DNA of 64,000 nt, taken from positions 162,388,491 to 162,452,490 of the forward strand of contig OZ020587.1 in assembly GCA_963971535.1 (NCBI GenBank). Direction: 5' to 3'. Source of the stretch: Notolepis coatsorum (taxonomy: Eukaryota > Chordata > Actinopteri > Aulopiformes > Paralepididae). Positions 805-46,439 of the stretch are shown here, piece after piece. Within the stretch, counting starts at the first letter, position 1, and every line of letters starts with the position of its first letter. Below the pieces are notes generated by a model. That model did no database searches and was not told where the DNA came from. It saw nothing but the letters and a program-made list of their open reading frames with translations. Both the position numbers and the translations under genes were made by a program.

Positions 805-827
805 AACGCTTGAGTCCCTTCATGCGC

Positions 828-7259: not shown

Positions 7260-7273
7260 TTTGTATTACCAGT

Positions 7274-7291
7274 CTCCTGGCTAGCTCGCCA
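7274..7291 (-). promoter_or_regulatory. Primer binding site of Gypsy element
   Basis: On the minus strand TGGCGAGCTAGCCAGGAG lies 5 nt after the LTR end (TTACA at 7297). A PBS starting TGG is expected here for a tRNA primer. I could not match the primer tRNA with confidence. Confidence 0.6.
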
Positions 7292-7296
7292 CTTTA

Positions 7297-22182: not shown

Positions 22183-24062
22183 TATAGTAAAAGGGGTAAA
22201 TGGTTCTACCTTTAAGAACCAGCGTTATCTAGTACCCTGCGTTGTGATTTGTCCGTCTGTTAAACCCCTAATACTTAAAAAGACCTTCACGGTCTTGTAT
22301 GAACGGCGGCGAGAATAGGAAGCTTCAAATGAGGAGGCAGAGAAGGTTCTAGTACCAATCAGATCTGTTCTTTATTTCAATTCCAACAGTGAACAAAGAT
22401 GATCTGGTTCAATTAAAAAAATTGATTGTGCAATGATATAAGTGTACTCAAGTACTATGCCACCGATCACTTATATCAGACTAATCAAAAAGTAGATTAA
22501 AGAATGGTCAATGTAGGCCCGATGGTGGTCGAGTCTTCTTCCTGGAAACAAAGAGATCCCGTTCTCGTTCAAGCCTGCTTCCAACGGCCTCCTCTGGTTC
22601 TCGTTTCCTTGTGCATGAGTGGTTTTCCAAAAAGTGTGTTCCTGCTTGCTGTCCTCCTGTGGGTAGAATCCTTCCAGAAGCTTCCTCTCTCTGTGTATGT
22701 TGCATTCTATTTTAAACCTTAACTCCCGCCCCTGTGAGAACGACGACCCGATTCGTCAGGGAGCGGAGCACTCCTTCCTGATTGGCTAAAGCTTCACGTC
22801 AGCCATTTTGAACCAGGTCTGACGTCAGATATTACTTTATTTGGCTAGATGTAAATCTTACAAGGCAGGCTGTTCCTTGTTTAGAGCTACAAGTTGTAGT
22901 TCTCTAGTTTAGCTTTTAAATGTATCTGGCATTAGATTTATCAATTTATCAATCAAAGATTAATGCTTATTTTGATTATACATCTAATTTAGTCTTTCCA
23001 CCGAATTTCTTAGTGTCCTAAACCTAGATTTATACCTATTGTTGGTTTTAAGACAAGCTGTTTTACTTTCTGTATTCTAGGTTAATATCTTTGAAGTTGG
23101 TTTGATGCTTCTAAATAAATTACACTTGTTTACCAACTTCTAAACCTATTTTAAACCATATACCTTGCTTAACTCAACTTTAACTATAGTTAATAATGTC
23201 CTGTTTAGTCTTGATTTGATCAGTTCAATATTGTAAACAGATTGATTCTATGTTTCATCCTTGAGTAATATTAGTTTTCTGGTTGTTGTTTTCCAACTTT
23301 GACCAAATGGTTGTTCCTCTGTTACAGGCAAACAGGAGGAACTTTAAGAATAGATTCTGTCCCCACTATGACACCAGATGGCTCTTTGAAGTAAATAGCA
23401 ACTGGGTGTTTCTAAACCTCCTAGTCTGGAGGATGTTTTTAGAGCATTTTTCTGTTTTATAGTTGGCCTTATCAGTCACCAGGACTGGGTGTTTGTTGAC
23501 AGGCCCATTGTGTGGGATGATAAGATCAACACAGCCACAACTGTTCTCATAGAGGTGACATTTATTGGTTTGAATAGAAGCTTGGAAGCTTTCCGCATCC
23601 CCACCCCCAACTAAGGCCTTTCTTTACAAATCAGTTGGCTGGGGCTCCAAAAGGCTATTGTTTGAATGTTTACAGGAAAGGGGGAAGTTTAGTCATCTTA
23701 CGACTGTATGTATCTAAAGGGTTTCATTCCCCCCCCCCCCCCCGTTGCGGTCCTCCAGAGAAAACAGGCCGCACAGTATTTAGCCATTAACCTTTCAGTC
23801 TCATAGTGAGTTTTGTCCAACCCTTTTATTATCTGTGCTAACGTTAGAAGTCCATTTTTATACTTATCCCTAGTTTAGAGCACCTGTATTTTAATAATCT
23901 ATGTTAGGGAGAACATACAGACTATTCTAAAATGTGTGTGCACTGGTCCTTTACCAAGTCCAACCTCTTTCCGGAGCAGTTTGACCTTTGGGACTCAAGA
24001 TTCAACAAACATACCCATATTTCCATAATATTTGGACAGTTTGAGCAGGGAAGGATACTACA
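22183..24062 (-). mobile_element. 3' LTR of IFITM-bearing LTR element
   Basis: This 1880-bp stretch matches 44542-46417 with roughly 1-1.5% substitutions by eye, from tatagtaaaaggggtaaatg to ggaaggatactaca. On the minus strand it starts TGTAGTATCC. The 4 bp before it, TCTA (22179-22182), recur right after the other LTR at 46418-46421. A poly-C run is at 23730-23744. Confidence 0.93.
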
Positions 24063-24645
24063 GTCCCCCGTCGTGGGTTTCTATACCCACGTATACCTGC
24101 TATTAACTTCTCAATCAAACTGGTCGTACGCCGTACAGATACCATAACTTTTTAACCTTTAGCAAAACTACCCAAAAAAACAAAAAACTTAAAGAATTTC
24201 TAAAACACAGTTAAATTCTGTACAGTACCAGATTCTTTCATCACCCTCGTTATTCACTTTCACACACAGTTATCAGTTATTAGAAGTTGACACCCAGTCT
24301 AGGTCCGTTTCTCTATACAAAGAGAACATCGTCCCATTTATCAGCTTTTTTGTTTATTTTACTATACTTATGTGTAATATCCAAATGTCTATTTTGTGTG
24401 TCTGACTCTGAAAGAAAAAGATTATTGCACCGCACAAAAGATCTAAACATTTCTAAGAAAAGAGGGAGCGTAAAATCAAAAAAATATATACAATTCTGCT
24501 CCCTTCAATGGATCCCTGAGATCTCCAATTAGCATTAGCTTTCATCCTGCCAGTTATCCCTCATCAACCTCCTGAGGTTTATTGATAACTCTTTGTGGTC
24601 GAGGACATCCTTCTGGACTTGTGCTAATCACTGCTCCTTCCGGTT
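24063..24645 (-). other. Internal 3' region of the LTR element
   Basis: No gene is recognised. The first bases, cgacgggggac on the minus strand, could be a weak polypurine tract against the LTR. The rest is A/T-rich with no env-like membrane ORF that I can support. Confidence 0.5.
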
Positions 24646-25177
24646 GTAAGTAAGTAAGTAAGTATTTATAAAGCACCTTTCATACATGTCATGTAGCTCA
24701 AAGTGCTGTACACAATTATAGGCATATATAACGATAAAAGCAATAAAGTCATAGTGATCAGTTAAGTTCAATGTTTAAAAAAAAATAATAATAATAATAG
24801 TAACGTAAAAATGAAAATAACGTAAAAACAGTCATTTGCTTACCAGTTTGGGAGAACAGGTCCGCACAAACATTTCCGCTCAGTGGCAACCGGAAGTGCA
24901 CTAAACCAATGCACTTGTATGGTAGGTAGCAATGTTTAGGTCTTATAATGCTAGTGTAGTTACGTTTTTATCAGTGGTCATAGTTGGGTCCATAGTGCTT
25001 TACCAAGTCCCATGGATCCATCAGTGGCCGTGTATTGTGTGCGTATGTACCCGTTCGCTCATGTGGTCAGTGGCCAGAGTTGGGTCCACAGGACTTATCC
25101 AAGTCCCATGGACCCATCAGTGGCCGCGTCTTGTGGTAGAAAGAAAGAAAAAGAAAAACGTATAAAGAAAACAGTCT

Positions 25178-25511
25178 AAAGTTTGAAAGTTTGGGAGGTC
25201 CGCAAAAACACGCCTTCAGCTCAGAAGCTGAGGCGTGTCAAAAACTTTTGAAAAACTGGAGGCGTGTCTCCTATTGTACCCATTCCTTCATCTAAAAAGT
25301 TTGAAAGTTTGGGAGGTCCGCAAAAACACGCCTTCAGCTCAGAAGCTGAGGCGTGTCAAAAACGTTTGAAAAACTGGAGGCGTGTCTCCTATTGTACCCA
25401 TTCCTTCATCTAAAAAGTTTGAAAGTTTGGGAGGTCCGCAAAAACACGCCTTCAGCTCAGAAGCTGAGGCGTGTCAAAAACTTTTGAAAAACTGGAGGCG
25501 TGTCTCCTATG
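25178..25511. repeat. 118-bp tandem repeat in L2 3' UTR
   Basis: Units beginning aaagtttgaaagtttgggag start at 25178, 25296 and 25414. The third is cut by the hAT element and its end resumes at 26846-26870. Each holds the inverted pair acacgccttcagctc/gagctgaaggcgtgt, so the RNA could fold into repeated hairpins. Confidence 0.9.
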
Positions 25512-25879
25512 CAGTGTTGTGCTAGTTACTGAAAAATAGTAACTCAGTTACTTTACTAGTTACTTCATTTCAAAGTAACTTCGTTACTGTACTAGTTACT
25601 TACACCCAAAAGTAATGAGTTACTGTGAAAAGTAACTATTTAGTTATTTAAAAAAATAAATAAAAAAAAAAATTGCTCAAGTCCCATGCCCCATATACTC
25701 AAAATCGGTTGATCAACTTGACAGTTTCCATTCACATCACCGAACTCTGCTAAGCAATGTGGTCTAGAGCGTTTCATTATATATTCCCTCCCCGCTGTAT
25801 GTATATTTCTCTCCCACCCACCCACCCCCTCCTAATGTACAGTCCCCTCCCCATCATATGTATATACTCTGTCAGGATC

Positions 25880-26160
25880 TAGGGGTAACAGTACTGTATA
25901 TTTGAATACCGCTTATGTCACAAATGTATCAGTACTAAATACCTATATGTCCCTATGCCATAAATGTCATGTATGTTGTGTATGTCATAAATGTCTATAT
26001 GAATTGAAAATGGGGGACCCTGATGGAAACAAGACAAACGTCTTTCTCAGGTCTGCATCCCCTTAACAATTGTATGTATTGAGCCGTACTGTATTGTACC
26101 CATTCTGCAATCTGTTAAATAAAGTTTTCATTCATTCATTCATTCATCCATTCATTAATT
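25880..26160 (+). mobile_element. LINE 3' tail insertion, ATTC-tailed copy
   Basis: It is the plus-strand version of the tails at 19233 and 21361: ggtctgcatccccttaacaa, gtacccattctgcaatctg, then (ATTC)n at 26128-26165. The 5' limit is approximate. Confidence 0.7.
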
Positions 26161-26442
26161 CATTCATAACCATCATGCAGCGTTGTTATCAAAGCATTGC
26201 AACGTTAGAATAGTTAGGATATCAATTGTGCATGAAAGGACTATATTTATATTGTTTGATTAGTATTATGAGATTCCCTGGCAATCCGTTGATCTTGAGT
26301 TTCAGTGAACACATTGCACTCACCGTCACCAGTCTGCGGTGGTCGAGATGTAACGTTAGTCCAGTTGACTCCAGCAGCCCTTCAAACATGTTCTTTATCT
26401 CGTTTCCATGTTGTATATTAATTATCTCTCCAAGTAGTTGCT

Positions 26443-26728
26443 AAATGGTTTGTTAGTTCATTATTATTACTGCGTTCTTATTATGTAGATTCATAGCGAG
26501 CGTCCTCTTGTTGTTTACTGTAGAGAGCGCCTATTTCTTTCAGAACGTCAGTGGCCAATCAGAAGTGCGAAACCAGAATGAGGCTACGGAAAGAAATAAT
26601 AATAATAATAATACTTCGTTTTATATAGCGCCTTTCAGTCTACAGTAAACAAAACAAACGCAGGCGAAATAAGGACGCTCGCTATGAATCTACATAAAAA
26701 GAACGCAGTAACGAACTAACAAACCATT
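26443..26728. repeat. Long inverted repeat (hairpin) inside hAT element
   Basis: Arms 26443-26523 and 26640-26728 are imperfect inverse complements (aatggtttgttagttca versus its complement, tagattcatagcgagcgtcc versus its complement). The loop of about 115 bp holds an (AAT)n LINE-tail piece. Confidence 0.85.
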
Positions 26729-26934
26729 CAGTAACGTAAGTAGCGTTACTGAATTTCAAAAGTAATGCGTTAGAGTACTAGTTGCGGCAAAAAGTAACTT
26801 CGTTTCTGTAACGCGTTACTTTGTAACGCGTTAGTCCCAACACTGCTCCTATGTACCCGTTCCTTCATCTAAAAAGTTGGGTCCACAAGGCTTATCCTAG
26901 CCTCATGGATCCATCAGGTTTTTCCAAGCCATAA

Positions 26935-29856
26935 CTATTTGTAAGCTAGACTGTATAGGTACGTTTTTAATTTTCCTTTAAAAATGTGTATAGAGCTGGC
27001 GTTTCTGATGTGTGTTGGTAGTGTGTTCCATAGTTTTGGGGCATAGTTGGCAAATGCCATACTTCCTATCCTTTTTTGGTTTCTGGGCGTGTCTAGTAAA
27101 CCTGTAGTGGATGACCGTAGCGTTCTTGAGGGCAGATAACTAACTAGGGAATTTGCTATGTATTTTGGGCCTTGCTCATTAAGAGCTTTATATGTTAGGA
27201 AAAGGACCTTAAAATCAATTCTATGAGTTATTGGAAGCCAGTGCAGAGTGGCCAGGACTGGAGTGATATGTTCTCTTCTCCTTGTATGAGTTAGTAATCG
27301 AGCTGCAGAGTTTTGGATAAGCTGAAGCTTCCCAATGGTTGCTTTGGGAAGACCAGTGAACAGTGCATTACAATAGTCAAGCCGACTTGATACAAAAGCA
27401 TGAATAAGTTTCTCTGCATCCTTTTTATTTACGAAAGGTCTTACTTTCGCTATGTTTCTTAGGTGGAAGAATGACGTTTTCATGGCCTTATTTATATGAG
27501 ACTTAAAGGTCAGGTCTGAGTCCAAGATGACACCTAGGCTTGTAACCTCAGTCTTTACATAGGATGACAGACTCCCCAGGTTTTTACAAAGCACTTCCCT
27601 TTTCGCTTTTGGGCCGATCAATAGGATTTCGGTCTTGCTTTCGTTTAATTTTAGGAAGTTATTGTTCATCCACTTGTTTATTGCTAACAGACAATTTGTA
27701 ATGGACTGTATGGCTGTAGTGTTATTTGGTTCTGCGGAGATATATAGTTGTGTATCATCAGCATAACTATGGAAGCATACATTGTGGTCTCGAATGATGT
27801 CCCCGAGGGGCAGCATATATAGTGAGAAGAGTAATGGACCAAGGCAGCTTCCTTGTGCGACTCCAAAATTGCTGTCATGTTCCTCGGATACATTGTCTCC
27901 AAGCTTAACATAGAACCTTCTCCCCTTAATGTATGTTATGAGCCAATTTAGTACATGATCGGAAAAGCCAACCAGTCTTTCTAGACGACTGATCAAGATA
28001 TTATGGTCAATCGTATCGAACGCTGCACTAAGGTCCAATAGGACAAGAATTGAGACTTTGCCAGCATCGGAGTTTAGCCTGAGGTCGCTAACTATTTTGG
28101 TAAGGGCAGTTTCAGTGCTGTGATTTGTTCTGAAACCTGATTGTAGTTCCTCCATGATGTTATTATCTTTGAGAAAGGAGTTTATTTGTACTGAGACTAT
28201 CTTTTCTAATATCTTGCTGATAAATGGAAGGTTCGATATTGGCCTATAGCTTTTTAGTTCGTTTACATCTAAGTTTGTTTTCTTTAGTAGTGGTTTTACT
28301 ACAGCTGTTTTAAATGCATCTGGAAAAGTGCCTGTTTGAAGAGACATATTTATGATTTCAAGGACATGATTTGAGACACTATCAAACACCCGCTTGAGAA
28401 ATGCTGTTGGTATAGGATCGAGGCAGGAGGTGGCGGAATTACACTCAGAGACAATCTTACAGAGGTCAGGTAATGTAATACATGTGAATTCCCCCATAGT
28501 TATCTCAGGTGGGGTTTCACTCATAGTCAGATCTATATCAGCGGTAATGCTTGCTCTAATCAATGATATTTTTTCATTAAAGAAAACTGCGAACTCTTCA
28601 CATTTTGTGGCTGATTGCTGCGGTATATGGGGGGGTGGTATGTTAATCAGCCGGTCAATGGTGGAAAAAAGTACCCTGGAGTTACCCATATTTTCTGAGA
28701 TCATTTTGGAAAAATATTCCTTTCTCGCAAGTTGTATTGCCTTATTGTATGCGCCCATGGCGTCTTTGTATAAATTAAAGTGAGCTGTGAGTTTGAGTTT
28801 CCTCCATTTTCGCTCGGCTATCCTACATTTTCTCTTGTTATCTTTAACATTGGTTTTATTTAGCCATGGAGAGATTCTATCAGTTTTTACCTTTTTAACC
28901 TTTAGAGGGGCAACAGTATCTAACACAGTTGACAAGGTGCTGTGGAAGTTTTGCACTTGCTGATTTAAGGAGGATTCACTGCATTGGTCATATGATTTCA
29001 TCATACCAGAGAATTTTGCTTCAGCTCTAGCGTCCAGAAGCCTTCTGTGAACTAGGAATTCGCTTCTGGTCTTATGTAATATTAGGCTTGTACCATAGAA
29101 CACACAATAATGGTCAGAAATTGGAATTTGTTTTACTGATATATTCTCAATGTTTAGCCCTGTTGTTATTAGTAGGTCCAGAGTGTTGCCATGTTGGTGG
29201 GTGGCCTCGTGAACATGTTGCATCAGTCCAAAACTGTCCAGTAGGTTCAGAAACTCACAACCCCTGGGGTCATCCTTTTTGTTGATATGAATATTTAGAT
29301 CTCCATTAAGAATGATTCTATCATACCTGGTAATGCAGATCGATATGAGTTCTGAAAATTCCTGTATGAAGAGTGGCGAGTACCTTGGTGGTCGATACAA
29401 TGTCACACATATTACTGGCATTTCTGTTTTCAATACAATAGCAAGGTATTCAAATGATAAAAATGTTCCCAGGTCAATATCATTGCACACAAATTGAGTG
29501 GAGATGATTGCTGCTATTCCTCCTCCCCTCCCACTCTGTCTGTTTGATTGATAGAATTTAAAATTGGAAGGGCAGGTCTCAATCAGTGTTGCTACACCAG
29601 TGATATTGTCTAACCATGTCTCTACTAAAAACATACAATGTACACCATGTTTTACTATGAGTTCATTTATCAGAAATGATTTTTGTTTCAGCGCTCTAAC
29701 GTTGAACAGTGCTAGTTTTAGCTGTACGGGTTCTGTAGTGGGGTGTGAGATAGTCTGTGGTTGAACACTGATATTGATAAGGTTAGATTTACATATGGGA
29801 CGTGATAATGAGTAATTGATTAGTCTTTTGGTGATCAGAATCGGGATGACACTCAA
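26935..29856 (-). CDS. L2 LINE ORF2: endonuclease and reverse transcriptase
   Basis: An uninterrupted 973-codon frame. The N-terminal APE endonuclease spans about residues 45-270 (ALFNVRALK, FLVETWLD, VTLYRPPR, ILNGDLNIHI, ISDHYCVF). The reverse transcriptase follows at about 520-800, with YRPISNLPFISKILEK, LLDLSAAFDTIDH, GVAQGSCLGPLLFSLYM and the catalytic SYADDTQLYIS. A C-terminal region of the L2/CR1 type ends RSSTTGLLDTPRNQKR and later. The protein would nick genomic DNA and copy the LINE RNA at the nick. Because all the motifs I can see are retained and there is no stop, this may be a recent, possibly competent copy. Confidence 0.92.
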   Translation of the reverse strand: MSVIPILITKRLINYSLSRPICKSNLINISVQPQTISHPTTEPVQLKLALFNVRALKQKSFLINELIVKHGVHCMFLVETWLDNITGVATLIETCPSNFKFYQSNRQSGRGGGIAAIISTQFVCNDIDLGTFLSFEYLAIVLKTEMPVICVTLYRPPRYSPLFIQEFSELISICITRYDRIILNGDLNIHINKKDDPRGCEFLNLLDSFGLMQHVHEATHQHGNTLDLLITTGLNIENISVKQIPISDHYCVFYGTSLILHKTRSEFLVHRRLLDARAEAKFSGMMKSYDQCSESSLNQQVQNFHSTLSTVLDTVAPLKVKKVKTDRISPWLNKTNVKDNKRKCRIAERKWRKLKLTAHFNLYKDAMGAYNKAIQLARKEYFSKMISENMGNSRVLFSTIDRLINIPPPHIPQQSATKCEEFAVFFNEKISLIRASITADIDLTMSETPPEITMGEFTCITLPDLCKIVSECNSATSCLDPIPTAFLKRVFDSVSNHVLEIINMSLQTGTFPDAFKTAVVKPLLKKTNLDVNELKSYRPISNLPFISKILEKIVSVQINSFLKDNNIMEELQSGFRTNHSTETALTKIVSDLRLNSDAGKVSILVLLDLSAAFDTIDHNILISRLERLVGFSDHVLNWLITYIKGRRFYVKLGDNVSEEHDSNFGVAQGSCLGPLLFSLYMLPLGDIIRDHNVCFHSYADDTQLYISAEPNNTTAIQSITNCLLAINKWMNNNFLKLNESKTEILLIGPKAKREVLCKNLGSLSSYVKTEVTSLGVILDSDLTFKSHINKAMKTSFFHLRNIAKVRPFVNKKDAEKLIHAFVSSRLDYCNALFTGLPKATIGKLQLIQNSAARLLTHTRRREHITPVLATLHWLPITHRIDFKVLFLTYKALNEQGPKYIANSLVSYLPSRTLRSSTTGLLDTPRNQKRIGSMAFANYAPKLWNTLPTHIRNASSIHIFKGKLKTYLYSLAYK

Positions 29857-29919
29857 CGTGTTTTTTTGTAGTTTAGGCTGCTTCTGTATATAGTCTACAG
29901 AGCTAGATATGGTTGGTTG

Positions 29920-30582
29920 TCAGGCCAGTGATGCTATACTTTGTATGACGTTATGTATTAGCACATTTACCCCTGATATGTTTGGATGGATGCCATCGGG
30001 TCTGTAATGGTATTTCCTGGACCAGAGCAGATCAAAGTTATTTATATAGCAAAGTCCTATAGTAGTACAGTGGGTCTGTAGCCATTTGTGCAACCAGAAC
30101 AGACGGCTAAATCGCTCAGATCCACGACCTATGGATGGAATGGGGCCAGACACAATGCATATTTTACCCAGGCTTTCAATAGTGAGTATTAGTGATTCAA
30201 AGTCAGATTGGAGTTTAACGGATTGTCTAGCCATTACGTCATTTGCTCCGATATGAATAATAACGGTGTGGGCGGACGGATATCTCTCGATGATTTCGGG
30301 AGTACACTCAAGTAAGTCAGTAACTTTTAAACCGGAAAAACAATACGTAATGCCGTGTGGTATTTGCAAAAACCTGGTGATGGAATCTCCGATGAGTAGG
30401 ATCTCTGGCTGTTCCTGGATGCATTCCCCGTCGTAGATGGCCAGGTTTCTATGGTGAAAAGCCGCAGGAGTAGCGTCTGCATTGCTGGCGGAGTTAGACG
30501 GTTGGTCGGGCAGCAGCGCCGTGTGGAGGGGCTCGTTCACAGCGGCATTTCCATCGATGACACTCGCCGTTTGAATGATCAT
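29920..30582 (-). CDS. L2 LINE ORF1: SGNH esterase-like protein
   Basis: This 220-codon frame has the SGNH-hydrolase blocks GDSITRF (residues about 68-74, nucleophile Ser), GANDV (about 113-117) and DGIHPN (about 195-200, catalytic Asp/His). Esterase-type ORF1 proteins are known from fish L2 and CR1 LINEs; what they do in transposition is unsettled, with membrane or lipid association proposed. The frame lies 63 nt upstream of ORF2 on the same transcript. The ATG at 30582 is the first seen, but an upstream extension in another exon or frame is possible. Confidence 0.85.
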   Translation of the reverse strand: MIIQTASVIDGNAAVNEPLHTALLPDQPSNSASNADATPAAFHHRNLAIYDGECIQEQPEILLIGDSITRFLQIPHGITYCFSGLKVTDLLECTPEIIERYPSAHTVIIHIGANDVMARQSVKLQSDFESLILTIESLGKICIVSGPIPSIGRGSERFSRLFWLHKWLQTHCTTIGLCYINNFDLLWSRKYHYRPDGIHPNISGVNVLIHNVIQSIASLA

Positions 30583-30735
30583 ACTGGTATGGGCTGCAGA
30601 GCACCGCAGACGAGGGCGTTTAAACTTTGGGGAGTCGGACCCATCGCGTGAGTCTGGGGAGCTTGGCGATGCGAGAGCAAACAGGGCAGAGCGCTTTCTG
30701 CTCCGGGTTGCAGATATACTTCCATGGTTGAGTTG

Positions 30736-32176
30736 TGAGCTGGTTGTGAGTTGTGTGCAGTCTTGGTACTGCTCCAGTCTTCACAGAAGGAAAATAATTC
30801 TCCCTCTGTCCTGTTATTGCTATTTGGATTTGTTATGTACAACAGACAATTTGATTGGAATATCACATTTTCGCTCAGATACATCTTTACTGTTCTGTAT
30901 TGACAATACACTTTTCTCCAAATTAGTTATCTATATATTCCATGGCTCCTTATCGTTAATATTCAAAAAATTCACATGGCTCTCCTTACTTTGTGCTGTA
31001 CTTTATTACTAGACCAATGTCTCAAGTTCAACACAGTACCCCACCACCCTATGACTGTGGAATATCATTTTCACAATCATACCTCCGTTTCTGGACAGCT
31101 TCCTCGGGGCTCAGACAGCCAGTACTGACGAGACCCCTCCTCCAGCAGACCCTATACGCACGGCAACAAACCACAGTCGCCTTTAAACACACATCTCTCA
31201 CACGCTCTGCCAGCCTCTAACAAGCCGTCAGAGTCCCCCACAAGCCAATTATCAATTACACATGTCCACACCTTACACAAAAGCTATTTGGCCAATGGCG
31301 ACCAAAATCTACAGAGCTTATGTACAGAGAATCATGTTTTTCCAACACTCCCCACAAGACTGCGACACAACCTCCCAGATCCTAAATCTGGATTCTCAAT
31401 GGGCGGAGAACAAAATCATGAACCAGCTCCAGTCCATCCACTTTGTTCTCAGTCCACTATATAGACATATACTACCAGTCCCGCTGTGTCGAGATCACTC
31501 CCAGCCTGTCAGGTTCCTAAGAAAAAAAATAGAGAAAAGAAACAAAAACAAAGAAAAACATGCCAGACCAAACAAATGAAAACAATAACCAAAATTGTGC
31601 GTGTCGTTTTTCAACCACACCCTAAGAAACAAAATCAACCTATTATCTAGGGGCATAACCACCCCCGTATACACTAAGAAAGAGAAAGAAAAAAATCAAA
31701 AGAAGAAAGAAAATGAAAACTTCCGGCCTGAGGCAGAAATTGCTTGTAAAAAACTAGGAATGAAAAATAAACAGAAATAAACTCCTTATCTATTATTCAT
31801 GATTGTTAATGTCAGTCTACCAATATCATCTTCTTAATTTCTTAATCATGCAGTCCACCCTTTGACCAATCTGATTATTGCTCAAGCATGGATAATTACT
31901 ACTGATCACTAGCTGAAGCAGTGTCACATCATCTCTCTGTCTAACATAAAATGTCTAATATTAACTATTTAACCACCAGTTTTTGTTAGTACGATTAGCT
32001 CATGCAACTGTCAGTTACTCCATCATTCCACGTTAGTCACACATCCATTTTAGTAACTTGCACACATAATCTAATCCCCTAACCTATCTATATCGCTTCT
32101 GTTCTATTTTTATTCTAATCAGTAATATTTTTTTTTTTTCAATTTATTTTTATTCTTAATACCTATCTATATTTTT
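30736..32176 (-). other. Internal region of the LTR element without pol
   Basis: Downstream of the Gag-like frame on the minus strand I looked for protease, reverse transcriptase, RNase H or integrase motifs and saw none. The minus frames near 31000-31580 are stop-riddled. Small plus-strand ORFs (31262-31579 and others) are unrecognised and of ordinary composition. The L2 insertion lies at its lower end. Confidence 0.6.
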
Positions 32177-35507: not shown

Positions 35508-35515
35508 ATCCTCTC

Positions 35516-36717
35516 GCACAACTCTGCGGAATACCCATTGTACATCAACCTCTCCCGTTCTTTGGTACGTTGATGGTCCTTTCCTTTGAACAATCAGAAT
35601 TATTTTTACAGCCTATCATTTCTAAACATTTGTGCTGGATATGGTAATTTAGTTGATTAAAATGTCTTCTTCGCCTTAATGAATTTGTAATTATTTTCTC
35701 ATAAAATATTCTAAATCCTATTACCCTTTAAATGACTATGTGTAGATTTAATTCTAACATTAGCTTCTATGTGTTGCTGTATTTATTTCTATCTGAGAAA
35801 GCCTAATATGTATTCTTATCTTACATCACATTTTACATCACAGTATTCACATAATTACTCATAATTAATACACATACCCCCTTTTTAACACCTTAACCTT
35901 AGGTGTTAAACGTCAACCGCCATCATCTCACGAGGAAAAAATAAACCTTCAGTGACTCATATCACTGAAACCTCGTGCCAGGCGTAGCGCCCCACACCTG
36001 TCTCATAAATCACAGGCGCAGACACCACTTCCAATGAAATCCCCTGCAGACCAATGATATCCCACAGGTCTGCCATCCGCAGCCCAAGGCATCCCCTCCC
36101 AGTTTGCAACCTGAAAGAGAATCCCCGGGCCCCCCACAAGGATATTCAAAATTCACACAACCTCCATCTACCGCTGCCCCTAAACCGGCCAGCGTCTACA
36201 CAGCATTTCAGATTTAAAACCATAACAACATACACCACTACCATAAGTCCCACATACAATACGACACAAAGCCTAACCCCGTACCCAAATGCACCCCTCG
36301 ACCCCCTGATACCTCAGTGGGGGAGTTGGGAGCCGGTACCCTGTTGAAATGAAAAAAATTACACACCCTGTTCGCCTAAGCCCGAACTAGAATCAACTCA
36401 CTAGGAAAAAAAAATTTATACACACACACGCAACCGCGGCAGGCAAGAATCCTACCACTGAACCAACAATGCATACAGCCACAGGCACGTCCCCCATGTC
36501 ACACCCCTTGCACACCCTGGCCTTATCATTCCCCAACCCAGAATGTCTACCACCCAGATCGCAGAAAGGCAGCTGGGGCGTACTCCTGATATGTCGCCAT
36601 CTACGGGACGCCCACCCCTGCTCGGCCCCCGTCACAACCTCCTGTATCCCTACCAACATCGCAACTGCAGGTGCAGCCGAGCAGCGCAACCTCCCATACA
36701 CAGGTCCATCTGCGCAG
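35516..36717. other. Leader region of LTR element, single-copy part
   Basis: This precedes the first copy of the IFITM unit and has no counterpart before the second copy. Short minus-strand ORFs (for example 35957-36139) are not recognised. It contains an A-rich run at 36403-36417. Confidence 0.5.
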
Positions 36718-36794
36718 AGAGTCCCAAACATAACACCAAAGCACATTTTGACTTACAGCCACACCACCATGAACGCAACACAAAATACACCGAC

Positions 36795-37193
36795 ATGGAG
36801 CCCCCGCCTTACCAGCCGGAGCTCGTCCAAATGCAAGGGAAGAAGTACGAGCGCCTTGTCGACCAAAGCGTAGCGCCACTGGTTCAACACGACCGGCCGC
36901 CACCCAGGGACCACATCATATGGTCCATATGCAGCTTCGTCAACCTGAACCCGCGTTGCCCCGGGTCAGCAGCGCTTCACTTCCCCGTTAAGTCAAGGGA
37001 CCGGAAGGTGGCTGGAGACCTGGAGAGAGCCAGAGAGTACGGCCCCACCGCCCGCTGCCACGACATCATCACCCTGACGTTGGCCATTACCACTGTCATC
37101 GCATCTGTCCCACTCGCCATCACCATTCCGTGGGTGTCAACTAAACCAACACTAAAGCAATCCTGCCGTTCAGCCCTACGATGTGGCTCCTAA
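36795..37193 (+). CDS. IFITM-like (CD225/dispanin) protein, copy 1
   Basis: The 132-codon frame encodes an interferon-induced transmembrane protein homologue. IFITMs sit in plasma and endosomal membranes and restrict virus entry by stiffening membranes. Visible: PPPY at residues 3-6 (a PPxY motif), YERL at 18-21 (a YxxL endocytic motif), the CD225 domain from PRDHIIWS (37-44), the family signature KSRDRK (66-71), C55 and C88 at the family spacing of 33, and a hydrophobic C-terminal segment at about 91-113. One of the paired cysteines is Arg54. No intron interrupts the domain although IFITM genes usually have one. Start chosen at 36795 because upstream codons differ between the copies and lack family resemblance. 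It is antisense to the Gag-like frame. Confidence 0.92.
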   Translation: MEPPPYQPELVQMQGKKYERLVDQSVAPLVQHDRPPPRDHIIWSICSFVNLNPRCPGSAALHFPVKSRDRKVAGDLERAREYGPTARCHDIITLTLAITTVIASVPLAITIPWVSTKPTLKQSCRSALRCGS

Positions 37194-38115
37194 GCGCTGT
37201 TGAGTCCCCATCACAACTATGTGATGCACACTCCTACTGGTGCAGCTTACAATGGGAAGAGAGAGGGAGAGAGGGAAAGAGAAGGAGAGAGAGAGAGTGA
37301 GAGAGGAGGGGGGCTGGGATCCCACCTCCCCCTACATCCCACCACTAGACTAAACTACACTACCAACACTACCACTGCTTAACAATCTAACCTTACTAAC
37401 AAATTAACCCTTAAAAGAAAAAACATCCTGTGCGCAGGATAATACGAAACCCAAAGCAGCTCTGAATGGAAACCGAAACATGGCCTCTGCCGCCTCCTAC
37501 TGCAATCCCAAACAAACACCACCTAGAAAAAAATAAATCCCTCAAAATGGACGCCCCGCGCCCCTACCCTAGATAATAAACACGGCGCCCCCACCCAAGA
37601 TGGCCGCGCTCCTTGTTTACATGAAGTGAAAGAGGAGGGGGGAGGGGGGAGAGGTAAAAAAAGAAAAAGGGGGGGGGAGAGGGGAAAGGAGGGAGGGCGA
37701 TAGAGAGGAGGGGGGAGAATGGAGGGAGGGAGGGAGAAAGGAGGGAGGGAGAAGGGAGGGAGGGGGGAGAGGGAAAAGGAGGGAGGGAGAGAGGAGGGGA
37801 GGGGGGAGGGAAAAGGAGGGAGGGAGAAAGGAGGGGGAGAAGGGAGGGAGGGGGGGAGAGAGAAAAGGAGGGAGGGAGAGAGGAGGGGAGGGGGGGGGGA
37901 GGGAAAAGGAGGGAGGGAGAAAGGAGGGGGAGAAGGGAGGGAGGAAGGAAGAAAGAGATTCTATGTCCATATGTCACCTTATTGGCCGAAACTATTATCA
38001 CTGCAATATAGTTATTGTATTATACGAGGCTCGACCCCATAACAAATGGCCTCATACTTGAAGAATGTAATCTAAACCAGGACGGGAGCCTAAGACATGG
38101 CTCTACCGCCCCCTA
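37194..38115. repeat. Purine-rich tract downstream of IFITM, copy 1
   Basis: No gene. 37255-37320 is (GA)-rich and 37630-37955 is an almost pure G/A strand built of gagggagggagaaagg-like units. ORFs read through it are low-complexity Pro/Ser or Gly/Glu/Arg artefacts. Copy 2 has the same tract at 42640-42965 with length changes. It may form triplex or G-quadruplex structure. Confidence 0.85.
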
Positions 38116-38364
38116 GTGCACTTTCAACCACATACCATCCACACTGAACACAACCTTCACACACCACACATATCTCACTCACAACCTAGTGCGCGTGCGC
38201 AAGTCTCTGTTACGGCCTACCAACTAGCCTTAACCATAATTATATTGCCAAACAACATCAAAAGTACACAACCATACTGCAATTCACACTACGCATTAAC
38301 ATTAATGTTATATCAGTCACACAACAATATCACTCATTCTCAACATTCAGCATTTGAACAGTCC

Positions 38365-38517
38365 CAGCAGCATGTAGCACGTAGCTAGGTAGCCTTAGCC
38401 ATCGCGAGCCACGCCGAGCAGCATGCAGCACGTAGCTAGGTAGCCTTAGCCACCGCGAGCCACGCCGAGCAGCATGTAGCACGTAGCTAGGTAGCCTTAG
38501 CCACCGCGAGCCACGCC
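38365..38517. repeat. 51-bp tandem repeat (3 units), copy 1
   Basis: Units begin gagcagcatgtagcacgtag and include gctaggtagccttagccacc. Starts are at 38365, 38416 and 38467. The matching array of copy 2 is at 43375-43527. Confidence 0.92.
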
Positions 38518-39117
38518 GCAGCGGCCGTCATCCAGTAACAATAGCCCCAGTAGCCCATATTAGCTCCCATTACCGCCTGTTAGCTTGCAGCATAGCTTAG
38601 CATCATAGCTTAGCCTAGCCTAACAACGGTACGAGCGTAAACGGCAATCTTATTCCGTTCACCGAGCACCTATAGTAGACCACGGCAGCGTTACAACGAC
38701 GTCACCCATTAACTGGACTTTAATTCAACGCAATTATGGCTAGAAAAGCTTTATACCCCCAGAGAAAATCGCCTAATATTCAGCTAATCTGGGTGATATT
38801 CTCAAAAGCTGTACGCGTTCAGCCTTGAAAGGGCCCCCTCTATGCTCATTTCACCTACTACGTTATTATCCCGCGACCCGTGACGAACACCACCATATCG
38901 ACGCCTTCGTTACACATCCATCTGATTCCGCGACCTGTACGGTTGTGAACCGGAGCCTGAAAATACCATTTGCGTTCGTTGCCGACGTTCTATACCGTCC
39001 TCTCCCTGCCGTTTGAGATACGGTAGTAAGCGGAGGTCTGGCGTTTACCCAGCAATCGCACACATCCATAATTCACCCACCGTATAGATCACGATAAAAA
39101 TATCCAACGTACCATAC

Positions 39118-41300
39118 AGTTCAAGTTCTTTAATAGTTGTCATACAGAAGTACAGAATACTTTCATACAAAATGCTTCTTACTGTTACGCTCCAGAGACT
39201 GTGCTAGACAAGATAGTATCAAATAACATAATAACATAATATAGCATGAATTTAGAAGAAGAATGAGGTCACAGTTGTTCGGTATAGACATATGTACAAT
39301 GTTCTGAGTTACCATATAATATACAATACACAATACTATGCAGTGTACTAATGTACAGTACTATCTAGTGCAAAGCAGAAATGGGATGAGGTACAATTTT
39401 AGGTACAATTTACAGTAAGGTGTACGAGTTGTAGTGCAATCCTTCATCCATAAATATAAAGTGTGGGGAGTGGGTGCTACAGTGTGTTTGTTTAAAGTGG
39501 GTGTGTGCTATAAAGTGTGTGTAGTGGGTGCTACAGTGTGTTTGTTTAAAGTGAGTGTGTGCGTGTGGATGTGTGTGCTATGTGTGTTTGGTGGTTGTTG
39601 TTGTGTAGTGTTCATTCATTGTTCGTTTAGCAGCCTGATGGCCTGGGGATAGAAGCTACTTCTGAGTCTTTCTGTGCTCGCCTTGAGACTCCTGTGTCGC
39701 TTGCCTGACGGCAGCAGTTCAAAGAGGCAGTTGTTCGGGTGGCTCGAGTCCTTAATAATTCTCTTAGCCTTCCCCTTGCAACGCTTGTTGTAAATGTTCT
39801 GGAGGGTGGGGAGCCCCCCTCCAATTGTGCGTTCGGCTGAACGTGTCACTCTTTGTAGTCTGCTTTGGTCTTTTGCAGTGCTATTCCCAAACCAGGAGGT
39901 GATGTTGCCGGTCAAGATGCTCTCTATTGTACATGAGTAGAAGTTCTTAAGGATCTTCTGGCTGACTTGGAACTTCCTTAGGCGCCTGAGGAAGTAGAGG
40001 CGTTGTCGTGCCTTCTTCACCACACTGTTAATGTGTATGGTCCATTTCAAGTCCTCGGATATGTGGGCTCCGAGGTACTTGAAGCTGTTGACTCTCTCAA
40101 CCGGTGCCCCGTCGATGCTGAGGGGGCTGTAGTCCTTGACCCCCGACCTCCTGAAGTCCACAATCATCTCCTTTGTTTTGCTGACGTTCAGGGAGAGGCT
40201 GTTTTCCTGGCACCATCCCGCCAGGACCTTGACCTCTTCCAGGTAGGCCCTCTCGTCGTTGGCAGAGATCAGGCCCACCACCACTGTGTCGTCAGCAAAT
40301 TTGACGATTGTATTGCTACTCCGCTGAGCCACACAGTCGTGTGTGTACAGGGAGTAGAGGAGGGGACTCAGAACACAGCCCTGGGGGGCCCCTATGTTGA
40401 GGGTGATGGATGAGGAGGTGCAGTTGCCTGCTCTCACCACCTGGGGTCTGCCAGTCAGGAAGTCCAAGACCCACTGGCAGAGGTCATAGCCCAAGCCCAG
40501 GTCCCTGAGCTTGGCTATGAGTATGGAGGGGACTATGGTATTGAATGCCGAGCTGTAGTCGATGAATAGCATTCTCACATAGTTCCCCTGCCTCTTGTCC
40601 AGGTGTGATGCTGCTGTGTGCAGCACATGGGATATGGCGTCCTCCGTGGACCTGTTGGGGCGGTATGCAAATTGCAGGGGGTCCATGTTGATGGGGAGGG
40701 AGGAGCAGATGTAGCCCTTTACTAGCTTCTCAAAGCACTTCATGGCTATGGAGGTGAGAGCTACAGGGCGGTAGTCGTTGAGGCAAGCAGGCTTGGATTT
40801 TTTGGGTACAGGGATAATAGTGGACTTCTTCAGGCAGGTGGGGATGACAGCCTGTTCTAAGGACAGGTTAAATATGTCAGTGAATACTGGGGCCAGTTGG
40901 TCGGCACAGACTTTTAGGACGCGGCCGGGGATGCCGTCCGGACCTGCTGCCTTCCTGATATTCACTTTTTTAAAGGTCCGCCTCACCTCATGCTCTGTTA
41001 CCCTGAACACTGCGCCTCCATCAGCAGCCGACCCCCCCCCCCCCCATTGCCGAGGCTTGTGAGCTGGTGTTGTTATTACCAGCATCAAACCTCGCATAGA
41101 AGGTATTGAGGTCGTTTGCTAAGGAGATGTCATTGTTCAGTTTGAGGGAGGCGCCTTTGTAGTCTGTCATCGTTTTGAGCCCCTGCCACATAGCTCTAGA
41201 GTCAGCTTGTTCAAACTGGAGTTCAATTTTATCCCTGTAGCGCCGTTTGGCCTCTGACACTGTCCTCCTTACGTTGTGTTGCGCCACCTTGTGGTCATTC
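39118..41300 (-). mobile_element. 5'-truncated Rex1-like LINE inserted in IFITM unit copy 1
   Basis: The uninterrupted copy 2 (44121-44133) defines the empty site: accatac/acccctg. The LINE starts within the end of its endonuclease-RT linker (DHKVAQHNVRRTVSEA) and carries RT to a 3' UTR ending ttaaagaacttgaact on the minus strand. At most 1-2 bp of target is duplicated. Confidence 0.92.
39616..41300 (-). pseudogene. Rex1-like LINE reverse transcriptase, truncated
   Basis: Reverse transcriptase motifs are [63 protein letters not shown] and [10 protein letters not shown], followed by the C-terminal thumb and the closing [12 protein letters not shown]. The frame runs open for 493 codons (to about 41097). 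Upstream, the linker continues in another frame (41021-41365), the shift falling in a run of 15 C at 41030-41044. There is no endonuclease, as expected from 5' truncation. Note FADD instead of the FSDD in the full-length Rex1-like copy at 47608-50685. Confidence 0.9.
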
Positions 41301-41810
41301 ACCCCTGAAAAAAACACGGCCTGTGTGCAATTCAGTGTGCATTCTACCGAGCTTCCCAAACGCAAGACGAAATTTGGCCATGATCAAAAGCCATTCGCAA
41401 ACGCAGCCCAGTTTCATAAATTTTCGAGTGCCGTCCTAGACAACCCCGTTTTTAAATTGAAACATGCCGATATGATCTGTGAACCGTCACGCACCCTGCT
41501 ACCCCATCATTTCCCTCCCCGACGGTTCCTCCGTTCCGGCGAGAGTGTCATGAGGTCATTGCAGAGCTCTCCCACCACCCCTGGTTCGAACTGAACGCCC
41601 CACTTTTTCACTCATCACGGCCTGTATCCACTCACCTCTTACGCAGATCTTCAGGATTCTGTCGTGATGATCCCGATCTCCCAGACGCCGATTAGCCGAG
41701 AGAAAGAAAAAAAATTCCTGAGCGCTTCAGCGCAGAGTCCCAAACATAACACCAAAGCACATTTTGACTTACAGCCACACCACCATGAACGCAACACAAA
41801 AGACACCGAC

Positions 41811-42209
41811 ATGGAGCCCCCGCCTTACCAGCCGGAGCTCGTCCAAATGCAAGGGAAGAAGTACGAGCGCCTTGTCGACCAAAGCGTAGCGCCACTGGTT
41901 CAACACGACCGGCCGCCACCCAGGGACCACATCATATGGTCCATATGCAGCTTCGTCAACCTGAACCCGCGTTGCCCCGGGTCAGCAGCGCTTCACTTCC
42001 CCGTTAAGTCAAGGGACCGGAAGGTGGCTGGAGACCTGGAGAGAGCCAGAGAGTACGGCCCCACCGCCCGCTGCCACGACATCATCACCCTGACGTTGGC
42101 CATTACCACTGTCATCGCATCTGTCCCACTCGCCATCACCATTCCGTGGGTGTCAACTAAACCAACACTAAAGCAATCCTGCCGTTCAGCCCTACGATGT
42201 GGCTCCTAA
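41811..42209 (+). CDS. IFITM-like (CD225/dispanin) protein, copy 2
   Basis: The 132-codon protein is identical to copy 1 in my reading; the only nearby coding-strand difference (agacacc versus atacacc) lies just before the ATG. All features noted for copy 1 hold, including PPPY, YERL, KSRDRK, C55 and C88, and there is no intron. Upstream sequence differs from copy 1: here it is the leader next to the PBS (41301-41733), so the two copies would have different promoters if transcribed. Identity of both frames fits either very recent duplication or selection. Confidence 0.92.
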   Translation: MEPPPYQPELVQMQGKKYERLVDQSVAPLVQHDRPPPRDHIIWSICSFVNLNPRCPGSAALHFPVKSRDRKVAGDLERAREYGPTARCHDIITLTLAITTVIASVPLAITIPWVSTKPTLKQSCRSALRCGS

Positions 42210-42639
42210 GCGCTGTTGAGTCCCCATCACAACTATGTGATGCACACTCCTACTGGTGCAGCTTACAATGGGAAGAGAGAGGGAGAGAGGGAAAGAGAAG
42301 GAGAGAGAGAGAGTGAGAGAGGAGGGGGGCTGGGATCCCACCTCCCCCTACATCCCACCACTAGACTAAACTACACTACCAACACTACCACTGCTTAACA
42401 ATCTAACCTTACTAACAAATTAACCCTTAAAAGAAAAAACATCCTGTGCGCAGGATAATACGAAACCCAAAGCAGCTCTGAATGGAAACCGAAACATGGC
42501 CTCTGCCGCCCCCTACTGCAATCCCAAACAAACACCACCTAGAAAAAAATAAATCCCTCAAAATGGACGCCCCGCGCCCCTACCCTAGATAATAAACACG
42601 GCGCCCCCACCCAAGATGGCCGCGCTCCTTGTTTACATG

Positions 42640-42965
42640 AAGTGAAAGAGGAGGGGGGAGGGGGGAGAGGTAAAAAAAGAAAAAGGGGGGGAGGGGAAAG
42701 GAGGGAGGGCGATAGAGAGGAGGGGGGAGAATGGAGGGAGGGAGGGAGAAAGGAGGGAGGGAGAAGGGAGGGAGGGGGGAGAGGGAAAAGGAGGGAGGGA
42801 GAGAGGAGGGGAGGGGGGGAGGGAAAAGGAGGGAGGGAGAAAGGAGGGGGAGAAGGGAGGGAGGGGGGAGAGGGAAAAGGAGGGAGGGAGAGAGGAGGGG
42901 AGGGGGGGGAGGGAAAAGGAGGGAGGGAGAAAGGAGGGGGAGAAGGGAGGGAGGAAGGAAGAAAG
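42640..42965. repeat. Purine-rich tract, copy 2
   Basis: G/A strand matching 37630-37955 with unit-length differences. There is no real ORF; the reading frames through it are artefacts. Confidence 0.85.
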
Positions 42966-43374
42966 AGATTCTATGTCCATATGTCACCTTATTGGCCGAA
43001 ACTATTATCACTGCAATATAGTTATTGTATTATACGAGGCTCGACCCCATAACAAATGGCCTCATACTTGAAGAATGTAATCTAAACCAGGACGGGAGCC
43101 TAAGACATGGCTCTACCGCCCCCTAGTGCACTTTCAACCACATACCATCCACACTGAACACAACCTTCACACACCACACATATCTCACTCACAACCTAGT
43201 GCGCGTGCGCAAGTCTCTGTTACGGCCTACCAACTAGCCTTAACCATAATTATATTGCCAAACAACATCAAAAGTACACAACCATACTGCAATTCACACT
43301 ACGCATTAACATTAATGTTATATCAGTCACACAACAATATCACTCATTCTCAACATTCAGCATTTGAACAGTCC

Positions 43375-43527
43375 CAGCAGCATGTAGCACGTAGCTAGGT
43401 AGCCTTAGCCATCGCGAGCCACGCCGAGCAGCATGCAGCACGTAGCTAGGTAGCCTTAGCCACCGCGAGCCACGCCGAGCAGCATGTAGCACGTAGCTAG
43501 GTAGCCTTAGCCACCGCGAGCCACGCC
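43375..43527. repeat. 51-bp tandem repeat (3 units), copy 2
   Basis: Same three units as at 38365-38517. Confidence 0.92.
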
Positions 43528-44518
43528 GCAGCGGCCGTCATCCAGTAACAATAGCCCCAGTAGCCCATATTAGCTCCCATTACCGCCTGTTAGCTTGCAG
43601 CATAGCTTAGCATCATAGCTTAGCCTAGCCTAACAACGGTACGAGCGTAAACGGCAATCTTATTCCGTTCACCGAGCACCTATAGTAGACCACGGCAGCG
43701 TTACAACGACGTCACCCATTAACTGGACTTTAATTCAACGCAATTATGGCTAGAAAAGCTTTATACCCCCAGAGAAAATCGCCTAATATTCAGCTAATCT
43801 GGGTGATATTCTCAAAAGCTGTACGCGTTCAGCCTTGAAAGGGCCCCCTCTATGCTCATTTCACCTACTACGTTATTATCCCGCGACCCGTGACGAACAC
43901 CACCATATCGACGCCTTCGTTACACATCCATCTGATTCCGCGACCTGTACGGTTGTGAACCGGAGCCTGAAAATACCATTTGCGTTCGTTGCCGACGTTC
44001 TATACCGTCCTCTCCCTGCCGTTTGAGATACGGTAGTAAGCGGAGGTCTGGCGTTTACCCAGCAATCGCACACATCCATAATTCACCCACCGTATAGATC
44101 ACGATAAAAATATCCAACGTACCATACACCCCTGAAAAAAACACGGCCTGTGTGCAATTCAGTGTGCATTCTACCGAGCTTCCCAAACGCAAGACGAAAT
44201 TTGGCCATGATCAAAAGCCATTCGCAAACGCAGCCCAGTTTCATAAATTTTCGAGTGCCGTCCTAGACAACCCCGTTTTTAAATTGAAACATGCCGATAT
44301 GATCTGTGAACCGTCACGCACCCTGCTACCCCATCATTTCCCTCCCCGACGGTTCCTCCGTTCCGGCGAGAGTGTCATGAGGTCATTGCAGAGCTCTCCC
44401 ACCACCCCTGGTTCGAACTGAAGGCCCCACTTTTTCACTCATCACGGCCTGTATCCACTCACCTCTTACGCAGATCTTCAGGATTCCGATTAGCCGAGAG
44501 AAAGAAAAAAAATTCCTG

Positions 44519-44538
44519 AGCGCTTCAGCGCGGCACCA
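44519..44538 (-). promoter_or_regulatory. Primer binding site of IFITM-bearing LTR element
   Basis: On the minus strand TGGTGCCGCGCTGAAGCGCT starts 3 nt after the LTR edge at 44542. The first eight bases, TGGTGCCG, match the 3' ends of tRNA-His and tRNA-Phe; the rest does not, so the primer is uncertain. Confidence 0.65.
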
Positions 44539-44541
44539 ATT

Positions 44542-46417
44542 TATAGTAAAAGGGGTAAATGGTTCTACCTTTAAGAACCAGCGTTATCTAGTACCCTGCG
44601 TTGTGATTTGTCCGTCTGTTAAACCCCTAATACTTAAAAAGACCTTCACGGTCTTGTATGAACGGCGGCGAGAATAGGAAGCTTCAAATGATGAGGCAGA
44701 GAAGGTTCTAGTACCATTCAGATCTGTTCTTTATTTCAATTCCAACAGTGAACAAAGATGATTTGGTTCAATTAAAAAAATAGATTGTGCAATGATATAA
44801 GTGTACTCAAGTACTATGCCACCGATCACTTATATCAGACTAATCAAAAAGTAGATTAAAGAATGGTCAATGTAGGCCCGATGGTGGTCGAGTCTTCTTC
44901 CTGGAAACAAAGAGATCCTGTTCTCGTTCAAGCCTGCTTCCAACGGCCTCCTCTGGTTCTCGTTTCCTTGTGCATGAGTGGTTTTCCAAAAAGTGTGTTC
45001 CTGCTTGCTGTCCTCCTGTGGGTAGAATCTTTCCAGAAGCTTCCTCTCTGTGTATGTTGCATTCTATTTTAAACCTTAACTCCCGCCCCTGTGAGAACGA
45101 CGACCCGATTCATCAGGGGGCGGAGCTCTCCTTCCTGATTGGCTAAAGCTTCACGTCAGCCATTTTGAACCAGGTCTGACGTCAGATATTACTTTATTTG
45201 GCTAGATGTAAATCTTACAAGGCAGGCTGTTCCTTGTTTAGAGCTACAAGTTGTAGTTCTCTAGTTTAGCTTTTAAATGTATCTGGCATTATATTTATCA
45301 ATTTATCAATCAAAGATTAATGCTTATTTTGATTATACATCTAATTTAGTCTTTCCACCAAATTTCTTAGTGTCCTAAACATAGATTTATACCTATTGTT
45401 GGTTTTAAGACAAGCTGTTTTACTTTCTGTATTCTAGGTTAATATCTTTGAAGTTAGTTTGATGCTTCTAAATCAATTACACTTGTTTACCAACTTCTAA
45501 ACCTATTTTAAACCATATACCTTGCTTAACTCAACTTTAACTATAGTTAATAATGTCCTGTTTAGTCTTGATTTGATCAGTTCAATATTGTAAACAGATG
45601 GATTCTATGTTTCATCCTTGAGTAATATTAGTTTTCTGGTTGTTGTTTTCCAACTTTGACCAAATGGTTGTTCCTCTGTTACAGGCAAACAGGAGGAACT
45701 TTAAGAATAGATTCTGTCCCCACTATGACACCAGATGGCTCTTTGAAGTAAATAGCAACTGGGTGTTTCTAAACCTCCTAGTCTGGAGGCTGTTTTTAGA
45801 GCATTTTTCAGTTTTATAGTTGGCCTTATCAGTCACCAGGAATGGGTGTTTGTTGACAGGCCCATTGTGTGGGATGATAAGATCAACACAGCCACAACTG
45901 TTCTCATAGAGGTGACATTTATTGGTTTGAATAGAAGCTTGGAAACTTTCCGCATCCCCACCCCCAACTACGGCCTTTCTTTACAAATCAGTTGGCTGGG
46001 GCTCCAAAAGGCTATTGTTTGAATGTTTACAGGAAAGGGGGAAGTTTAGTAATCTTACGACTGTATGTATCTAAAGGGTTTCATTCCCCCCCCCCCCCGT
46101 TGTGGTCCTCCAGAGAAAACAGGCCGCACAGTATTTAGCCATTAACCTTTCAGTCTCATAGTGAGTTTTGTCCAACCCTTTTATTATCTGTGCTAACGTT
46201 AGAAGTCCATTTTTATACTTATCCCTAGTTTAGAGCACCTGTATTTTAATAATCTATGTTAGGGAGAACATACAGACTATTCTAAAATGTGTGTGCACTG
46301 GTCCTTTACCAAGTCCAACCTCTTTCCGGAGCCGTTTGACCTTTGGGACTCAAGATTCAACAAACATACCCATATTTCCATAATATTTGGACAGTTTGAG
46401 CAGGGAAGGATACTACA
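44542..46417 (-). mobile_element. 5' LTR of IFITM-bearing LTR element
   Basis: The 1876-bp partner of 22183-24062, followed by the target duplication TCTA at 46418-46421. The minus-strand end ...TTTTACTATA is nearly the inverse of its TGTAGTA start. LTR divergence of about 1-1.5% means the insertion is older than the IFITM-unit duplication, whose copies look closer to identical. Confidence 0.93.
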
Positions 46418-46439
46418 TCTACTATCAGATTCGATCTAG

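Follow-up and report, generated by a model that had tools for sequence, protein, structure and literature searches.

An antisense IFITM segment, probably derived from a spliced host mRNA, in a dispersed LTR-element family of Notolepis coatsorum

The LTR element and its IFITM frames

We describe a long terminal repeat (LTR) element in a 64,000-nucleotide stretch, hereafter the window, of the genome of the fish Notolepis coatsorum (GenBank assembly GCA_963971535.1, contig OZ020587.1, positions 162,388,491 to 162,452,490 of the forward strand). The element lies on the minus strand, and two IFITM open frames lie within it on the plus strand, between a primer-binding-site (PBS)-like motif and a Gag-like frame. 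A first-pass annotation, made from the sequence and its translated open reading frames, had proposed that this element carries a PBS, a Gag-like frame and no pol, and that the two 132-codon frames in its leader are antiviral-type IFITM genes, acquired as an mRNA and spread with the element. The features of the element and of its IFITM frames are as follows.

22179-22182, no strand: left target-site duplication TCTA, the same 4 bp lying beyond the opposite LTR
22183-24062, minus strand: 3' LTR, paired with 44542-46417
24063-24072, minus strand: polypurine-tract-like CGGGGGAC, abutting the 3' LTR, read from the sequence
32177-33049, minus strand: Gag-like open reading frame with two CX2CX4HX4C (CCHC) knuckles recognized by eye
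33068-33457, minus strand: further gag-side frame, in a different reading frame
36795-37193, plus strand: IFITM open frame, copy 1 (132 aa; CD225 3.6e-15)
41811-42209, plus strand: IFITM open frame, copy 2 (132 aa; protein identical to that of copy 1)
44532-44538, minus strand: PBS-like TGGTGCC, read from the sequence, starting 3 nt beyond the inner edge of the 5' LTR
44542-46417, minus strand: 5' LTR, paired with 22183-24062
46418-46421, no strand: right target-site duplication TCTA, matching the left one

The proposed pair of 1.88-kb LTRs with a shared TCTA is borne out, as 1853 of 1880 aligned columns are identical (23 substitutions in 1876 compared bases) and TCTA stands outside both ends. 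The sequence GTCCCCCG also follows the LTR in another locus (L062), as it does at the polypurine-tract-like site of the window, and the LTRs are spaced ~10-12 kb apart in those family loci where they could be paired. The PBS is rightly placed, but we term it PBS-like because the LTR termini are TG...TA, not TG...CA, and the primer tRNA is not assigned. Similarly, the Gag-like frame retains its two CCHC knuckles as support, but a Pfam scan gave no match and a search for homologous proteins, with 523 candidates, gave none that was significant. We found no retroviral pol in the subset of the element's frames that was scanned, in agreement with the first-pass annotation; ten further frames had no significant match, and the element's reverse transcriptase matches (Pfam RVT_1) fall in two LINE-type frames. 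Rfam and tRNA scans led nowhere, as did a search of viral contigs with the IFITM, gag and one LTR end, and a promoter scan based on a bacterial consensus unsuited to this host. The leader beside the 5' LTR (43500-44500) has a CpG observed/expected ratio of ~1.0-1.4.

Both plus-strand frames match the Pfam CD225 profile with 56.3 bits against a cut-off of 27.1, so their identification as IFITM holds, and each of the five element frames scanned, of which two are identical, contains CD225. The window frame reaches 132 instead of 121 codons because a stop kept at most comparable loci is lost here: codon 122 is a stop in eight of the nine other loci aligned that far, and Q in the window and in L021. 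A search of solved structures led nowhere. Placement of the frame by a tree was rejected, as the window row fell on a long branch with the Oncorhynchus protein P0032 while the parent gene in its own genome is the better candidate; the grouping may reflect long-branch attraction. P0032, an uncharacterized protein of Oncorhynchus tshawytscha, has an internally duplicated CD225 segment, and its N-terminus is the most similar to the element frame among the 120 matches listed; by its sequence it could be another element-borne copy.

A spliced host mRNA in a dispersed family

The genome that contains the window (3.42 Gb) also holds a host IFITM cluster, which a fish IFITM query located on the minus strand of a second contig, C45, at 101.92-101.96 Mb, with exon pairs ~1.0-1.5 kb apart. 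The exons were delimited by homology and splice sites. The predicted protein of the parent gene (C45:101.92-101.93 Mb), encoded by exon 1 (L049) and exon 2 (L050), has 120 aa. A two-exon structure is described for IFITM genes of mammals and other vertebrates in passages of PMC3424830 and PMC3499546.

36754-37241, plus strand: processed IFITM mRNA copy 1, by blastn against the C45 host gene; it consists of the 5' untranslated region (UTR) exon (36754-36789), exon 1 (to 36992), exon 2 (from 36993) and part of the 3'UTR (37160-37241)

In the host gene, the 5'UTR exon is followed by GTAAGT, exon 1 is preceded by TAATAG and ends in GTTAAG before a further GTAAGT, and exon 2 is preceded by TTCCCAG. 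The element joins the 5'UTR exon, exon 1 and exon 2 exactly at these splice sites, that is, at two junctions in the blastn comparison with the C45 gene. The 5'UTR exon, fused at its donor, aligns over 38 columns, exon 1 is 90.7% identical to the host over 183 nt, exon 2 87.2% over 109 nt, and the 3'UTR 83.6% over 61 nt with an extra 22-nt match before it; positions 37100-37159 could not be aligned to the host gene. The copied part stops within the 3'UTR, before the first AATAAA or ATTAAA of the host. No poly-A tail was seen at the 3' end of 36754-37241, and no target-site duplication around it was convincing. Judged by its sequence, the IFITM segment is mRNA-derived and without the hallmarks of LINE activity. 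The host genes on C45 correspond to the element copy in their exon contents, but contain introns and keep the first membrane segment intact, unlike the window copy.

Other copies of the IFITM unit, for which the first-pass annotation had proposed a search, abound in the same genome. A protein search gave at least 150 matches at E<=0.001, from the best 150 of 871 candidates scored, one of them a host exon on C45. A 51-mer from the frame occurs with at most three mismatches at 105 genome places (control, 0); exact 51-mers number 44, of which one is in the host gene and two are in the window. At all 20 long loci (9.9 kb, L009-L028), fetched around IFITM matches and including one place twice sampled (L028 is the place of L003), the IFITM segment is antisense to the same gag-side sequence and in the window's relative orientation; this flank test set aside the short stretches L029-L047. 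A further copy, L048, lies between LTR stretches that are alike at 1050 of 1068 ungapped columns (98.3%), its LTR being 84% identical to that of the window over ~530 columns. Exact exon fusion against an intron-bearing gene, ~100 dispersed copies and the constant antisense arrangement agree with the capture and spread of an IFITM mRNA as first proposed. That proposal would have been in doubt if copies of the LTR lacked IFITM and the only host gene sat, with introns, at this locus. Copies of the former kind exist (L059, L060), but the host genes are on C45. L059 has no coding part while keeping both UTR-derived ends, which we interpret as a deletion at GC microhomology. In L060 there is no match to IFITM, and homology runs only to 36764, ~10 nt beyond the capture boundary; L060 also lacks the long leader and is ambiguous as a true pre-capture site. 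At one place (L005 and L006, C8:206.84 Mb) two IFITM copies stand ~2.7 kb apart with a leader junction that differs from the window's, perhaps an independent local amplification.

On these comparisons, we consider it probable that an LTR family without detected pol took up, in antisense, one spliced host IFITM mRNA in its leader, which separates the PBS from the gag-like frame, and that the segment spread with the family as a passenger whose protein was under little or no constraint. The element would have been mobilized in trans by an autonomous relative that supplied the proteins. This estimate covers capture, spread and passenger status jointly, and not the route of capture. For the route, we incline to a strand transfer, during reverse transcription, in which an IFITM cDNA would have taken part, since ordinary copy-choice on mRNA would be expected to yield the sense orientation, and retroposition by a LINE a poly-A tail. 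The alternative that a LINE-made IFITM retrocopy entered the ancestral element and was then carried along concerns the route only and is compatible with passenger status. It accounts for the exact splicing, and passages of PMC10415907 attribute primate IFITM retrogenes to such a process; given the missing poly-A tail, the lack of a convincing target-site duplication and the end of the copied part inside the 3'UTR before the first host polyadenylation-type motif, we regard it as the less likely route, though a real candidate.

The transduction of host genes by retroviruses, as with oncogenes and the cyclins of fish retroviruses, likewise joins a spliced host mRNA to a retroelement, as a rule in sense orientation; the window element differs in its antisense orientation and in having no detected pol. 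The primate IFITM retrogenes are likewise processed and intronless, derive from an immunity-related IFITM mRNA and are dispersed through the genome, but PMC10415907 ascribes them to retrotransposition through class 1 elements (in mammals, LINEs), with poly-A and duplicated target sites, whereas the window copy sits inside an LTR element, in antisense, spreads with it and has no A-tail that we could see. The plant LTR elements Retand, Grande and RIRE2 resemble it in having an extra gene antisense to gag-pol; in the passages of PMC11963269 that treat these antisense frames, they lie between pol and the 3' LTR and their origin is left open, whereas here the segment lies between PBS and gag and a host parent is identified. 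Capture of host sequence by abnormal template switching, as outlined in part of PMC13317346, is a near precedent. We found no report of IFITM inside an LTR element among the open-licence papers listed for IFITM, retrogenes and host-gene capture. The name percomORF led nowhere, the papers listed for it concerning retroviral Env or fish endogenous retroviruses.

Constraint on the IFITM segment

The copies fall into two groups: group i resembles the window, and group ii comprises ten long loci and 19 short ones assigned by matched range. The window frame differs from the host at 0.115 non-synonymous (dN) and 0.097 synonymous (dS), and the means against the host are 0.121 and 0.138 for 17 other group-i rows and 0.115 and 0.152 for 29 group-ii rows, some rows being near-duplicate loci. 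Frame variants in group i are 27 synonymous, 48 non-synonymous and two stops (p 0.05; 26% synonymous expected), and five of its 17 rows have stops within residues 2-86. In the aligned group-ii copies, the start codon is ACG in nine of ten and a stop stands near residue 87 in nine of ten. Among 121 proteins, the first membrane segment is least hydrophobic in the window protein, which departs at nine of 39 positions conserved in relatives, where the median of 120 relatives (among the matches listed, of 1255) is one and two relatives depart at ten. With 30-50 random substitutions, the probability of acquiring no stop is 0.37-0.21 (substitutions only, no indels), so that open frames are unsurprising at such divergence. 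Selection on the protein was therefore dropped as the cause of the open frame, the divergence from the host also being near-neutral. An argument from the loss of the oligomerization glycine, discussed for IFITM in part of PMC7665892, was likewise dropped, as the host gene, by eye, lacks it there too. From these sequence comparisons, we read the protein as being under little or no constraint in the window's lineage, and other lineages may retain weak constraint. The antiviral character assigned to the frame earlier finds no support in its near-neutral divergence and eroded first membrane segment, and the copy in the window probably no longer works as an antiviral protein.

Several observations nevertheless weigh against the segment being a mere passenger. 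Several copies keep open frames, and none of the 29 group-ii rows has a stop within residues 2-86. Frame variants of group ii are 19 synonymous, 24 non-synonymous and no stop (p 0.008 against the 26% expected, with CpG effects uncontrolled), and within its ten copies dN is 0.004 and dS 0.033. In L048, the frame scores 77.7 bits with CD225 and its first membrane segment resembles that of the host. At 11 of the 12 group-i loci, the identity of the IFITM segment is above the mean for the remaining regions. Moreover, only four of 1694 windows of 51 nt are as invariant as a block that is identical to the host, the block itself included, and the three lowest overlap it. Such features would be unexpected in a segment that is purely a passenger. 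As to the capture, a decayed LINE retrocopy may have been the form in which the segment entered.

36884-36934, plus strand: 51-nt block identical to host IFITM exon 1, by blastn and window variability

Across 13 sequences (the window and 12 loci), the mean pairwise difference of the block is 0.028, and the median for 51-nt windows from 35508 to 37305 is 0.100. We treat this low variability as suggestive only, as the block was picked after viewing the alignment and codes for a nearly invariant part of CD225. In the ten long loci of group ii, identity to the window is 92% for the IFITM segment and 79-82% for four further regions; group ii has the window's derived residues, and its match ends near 37094. 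This difference fits an exchange of the IFITM segment between element lineages, or its unusual conservation. Within group ii, the IFITM part ranks with the least variable sequence: its mean pairwise difference is 0.011, and flank windows of matching length give 0.014-0.24, though values down to 0.009 occur in some 85-nt windows of the flanks. In group i, the mean identity is 91.8% in the IFITM segment against 83.1-91.7% in five other regions.

These patterns bear on the alternative that element transcripts pair with host IFITM mRNA, or feed small RNAs, and thereby lower IFITM to the benefit of the element or a helper retrovirus. The window and host exon 1 share a perfect identity of 59 nt, a run with a chance of 0.016 given 17 mismatches in 183 nt; the exact 51-mers include the host gene, the block is among the least variable windows of 1.8 kb, and IFITM stands above other regions in both groups while the protein drifts. 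On the other hand, the block's near-invariance in relatives at the protein level and recent descent from a conserved host exon could explain it, its choice followed inspection of the alignment, the group-i IFITM mean is about that of two other regions (91.6% and 91.7%; the rest 83-90%), and 61 of the 105 51-mer matches are inexact, so that some copies have changed in the block. We hold such an effect to be doubtful. The fuller version, in which the family would use the 51-59 nt complementary to host exon 1 as antisense RNA to lower an entry-restriction factor, and in which the segment would have reached the second lineage because it helps, is on the same comparisons slightly more doubtful still.

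In a further alternative, a protein function that seems to us improbable, an antisense promoter would drive the frame, and the resulting IFITM variant would modulate membranes or the oligomers of host IFITM. CD225 in all the scanned element frames, the host-like membrane segment of L048 and the synonymous lean of group ii would suit it, but dN is about equal to dS against the host, the window protein is eroded in its first membrane segment and at conserved sites, group ii mostly has ACG for its start and an early stop, and open frames are expected by chance. Mis-assembly or chance bracketing by unrelated LTR-like flanks is scarcely credible in view of the matching TCTA, the PBS-like and polypurine-tract-like sites, and the recurrence of the leader-IFITM-gag-side arrangement at every long locus and in the second LTR-bracketed copy, L048.

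With passenger status as the preferred reading, the locus offers a capture that is readable to the base against a parent gene in the same genome, along with ~100 copies of a restriction-factor segment that is antisense within LTR-element sequence wherever the flanks around IFITM matches were examined. It opens two questions to test: by what means host sequence enters retroelements in antisense, and whether a defence gene of the host can be used by selfish elements against that gene's own mRNA.

Nested insertions, tandem duplication and a neighbouring element

24648-30750, no strand: inserted DNA with LINE-type frames (26935-30582, minus strand; RVT_1), missing from several relatives
33943-35507, no strand: nested DNA transposon remnant, hAT-type by eye, with an 8-bp duplication ATCCTCTC at 33935-33942 and 35508-35515
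36718-39118 and, past a LINE, 41296-41738, no strand: tandem unit copy 1
39119-41295 (ends approximate), minus strand: LINE inside unit copy 1 (RVT_1), missing from unit copy 2
41734-44537, no strand: tandem unit copy 2, with three substitutions against 36718-39118 and two in 364 against 41296-41659

The two 2.8-kb unit copies differ by 5 substitutions in 2758 compared with 23 in 1876 for the LTRs (Fisher p 8e-6; substitutions only), and having fewer substitutions than the LTR pair they were duplicated after insertion of the element, or were later homogenized. We suggest that a tandem duplication of the window copy's unit after insertion gave rise to the two IFITM frames; two separate captures in the window were rejected, both frames tracing to one later duplication. 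The LINE in unit copy 1, the DNA transposon and the insert at 24648-30750 are later arrivals, the latter two being absent from several related loci: alignments of L003, L007, L008, L019, L022 and L028 jump from 35508 to 33942, and those of L019, L023 and L028 from 30750 to 24647. The DNA transposon was also rejected as the carrier of IFITM, as it ends at 35507 and is absent from IFITM-bearing relatives. Its frame at 35018-35266 had no Pfam match, and at 34215-34303 it contains a 44-bp inverted repeat that is 98% complementary with 1 nt between the arms. Long purine-rich GGGAGG arrays lie downstream of each IFITM copy (37671-37958 and 42684-42959) and differ in length between the units.

A second LTR element occupies positions 1-8497 of the window on the minus strand, its 791-bp LTRs (1-791 and 7707-8497) being 99.9% alike. 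It has a PNMA-like Gag frame that also contains an RRM domain, a separate RNase H frame, and a frame at 828-2657 that is integrase-like by eye. Its segment 5081-5370 is 97% identical over 290 columns to 24646-24929 in the 3' region of the IFITM-bearing element.

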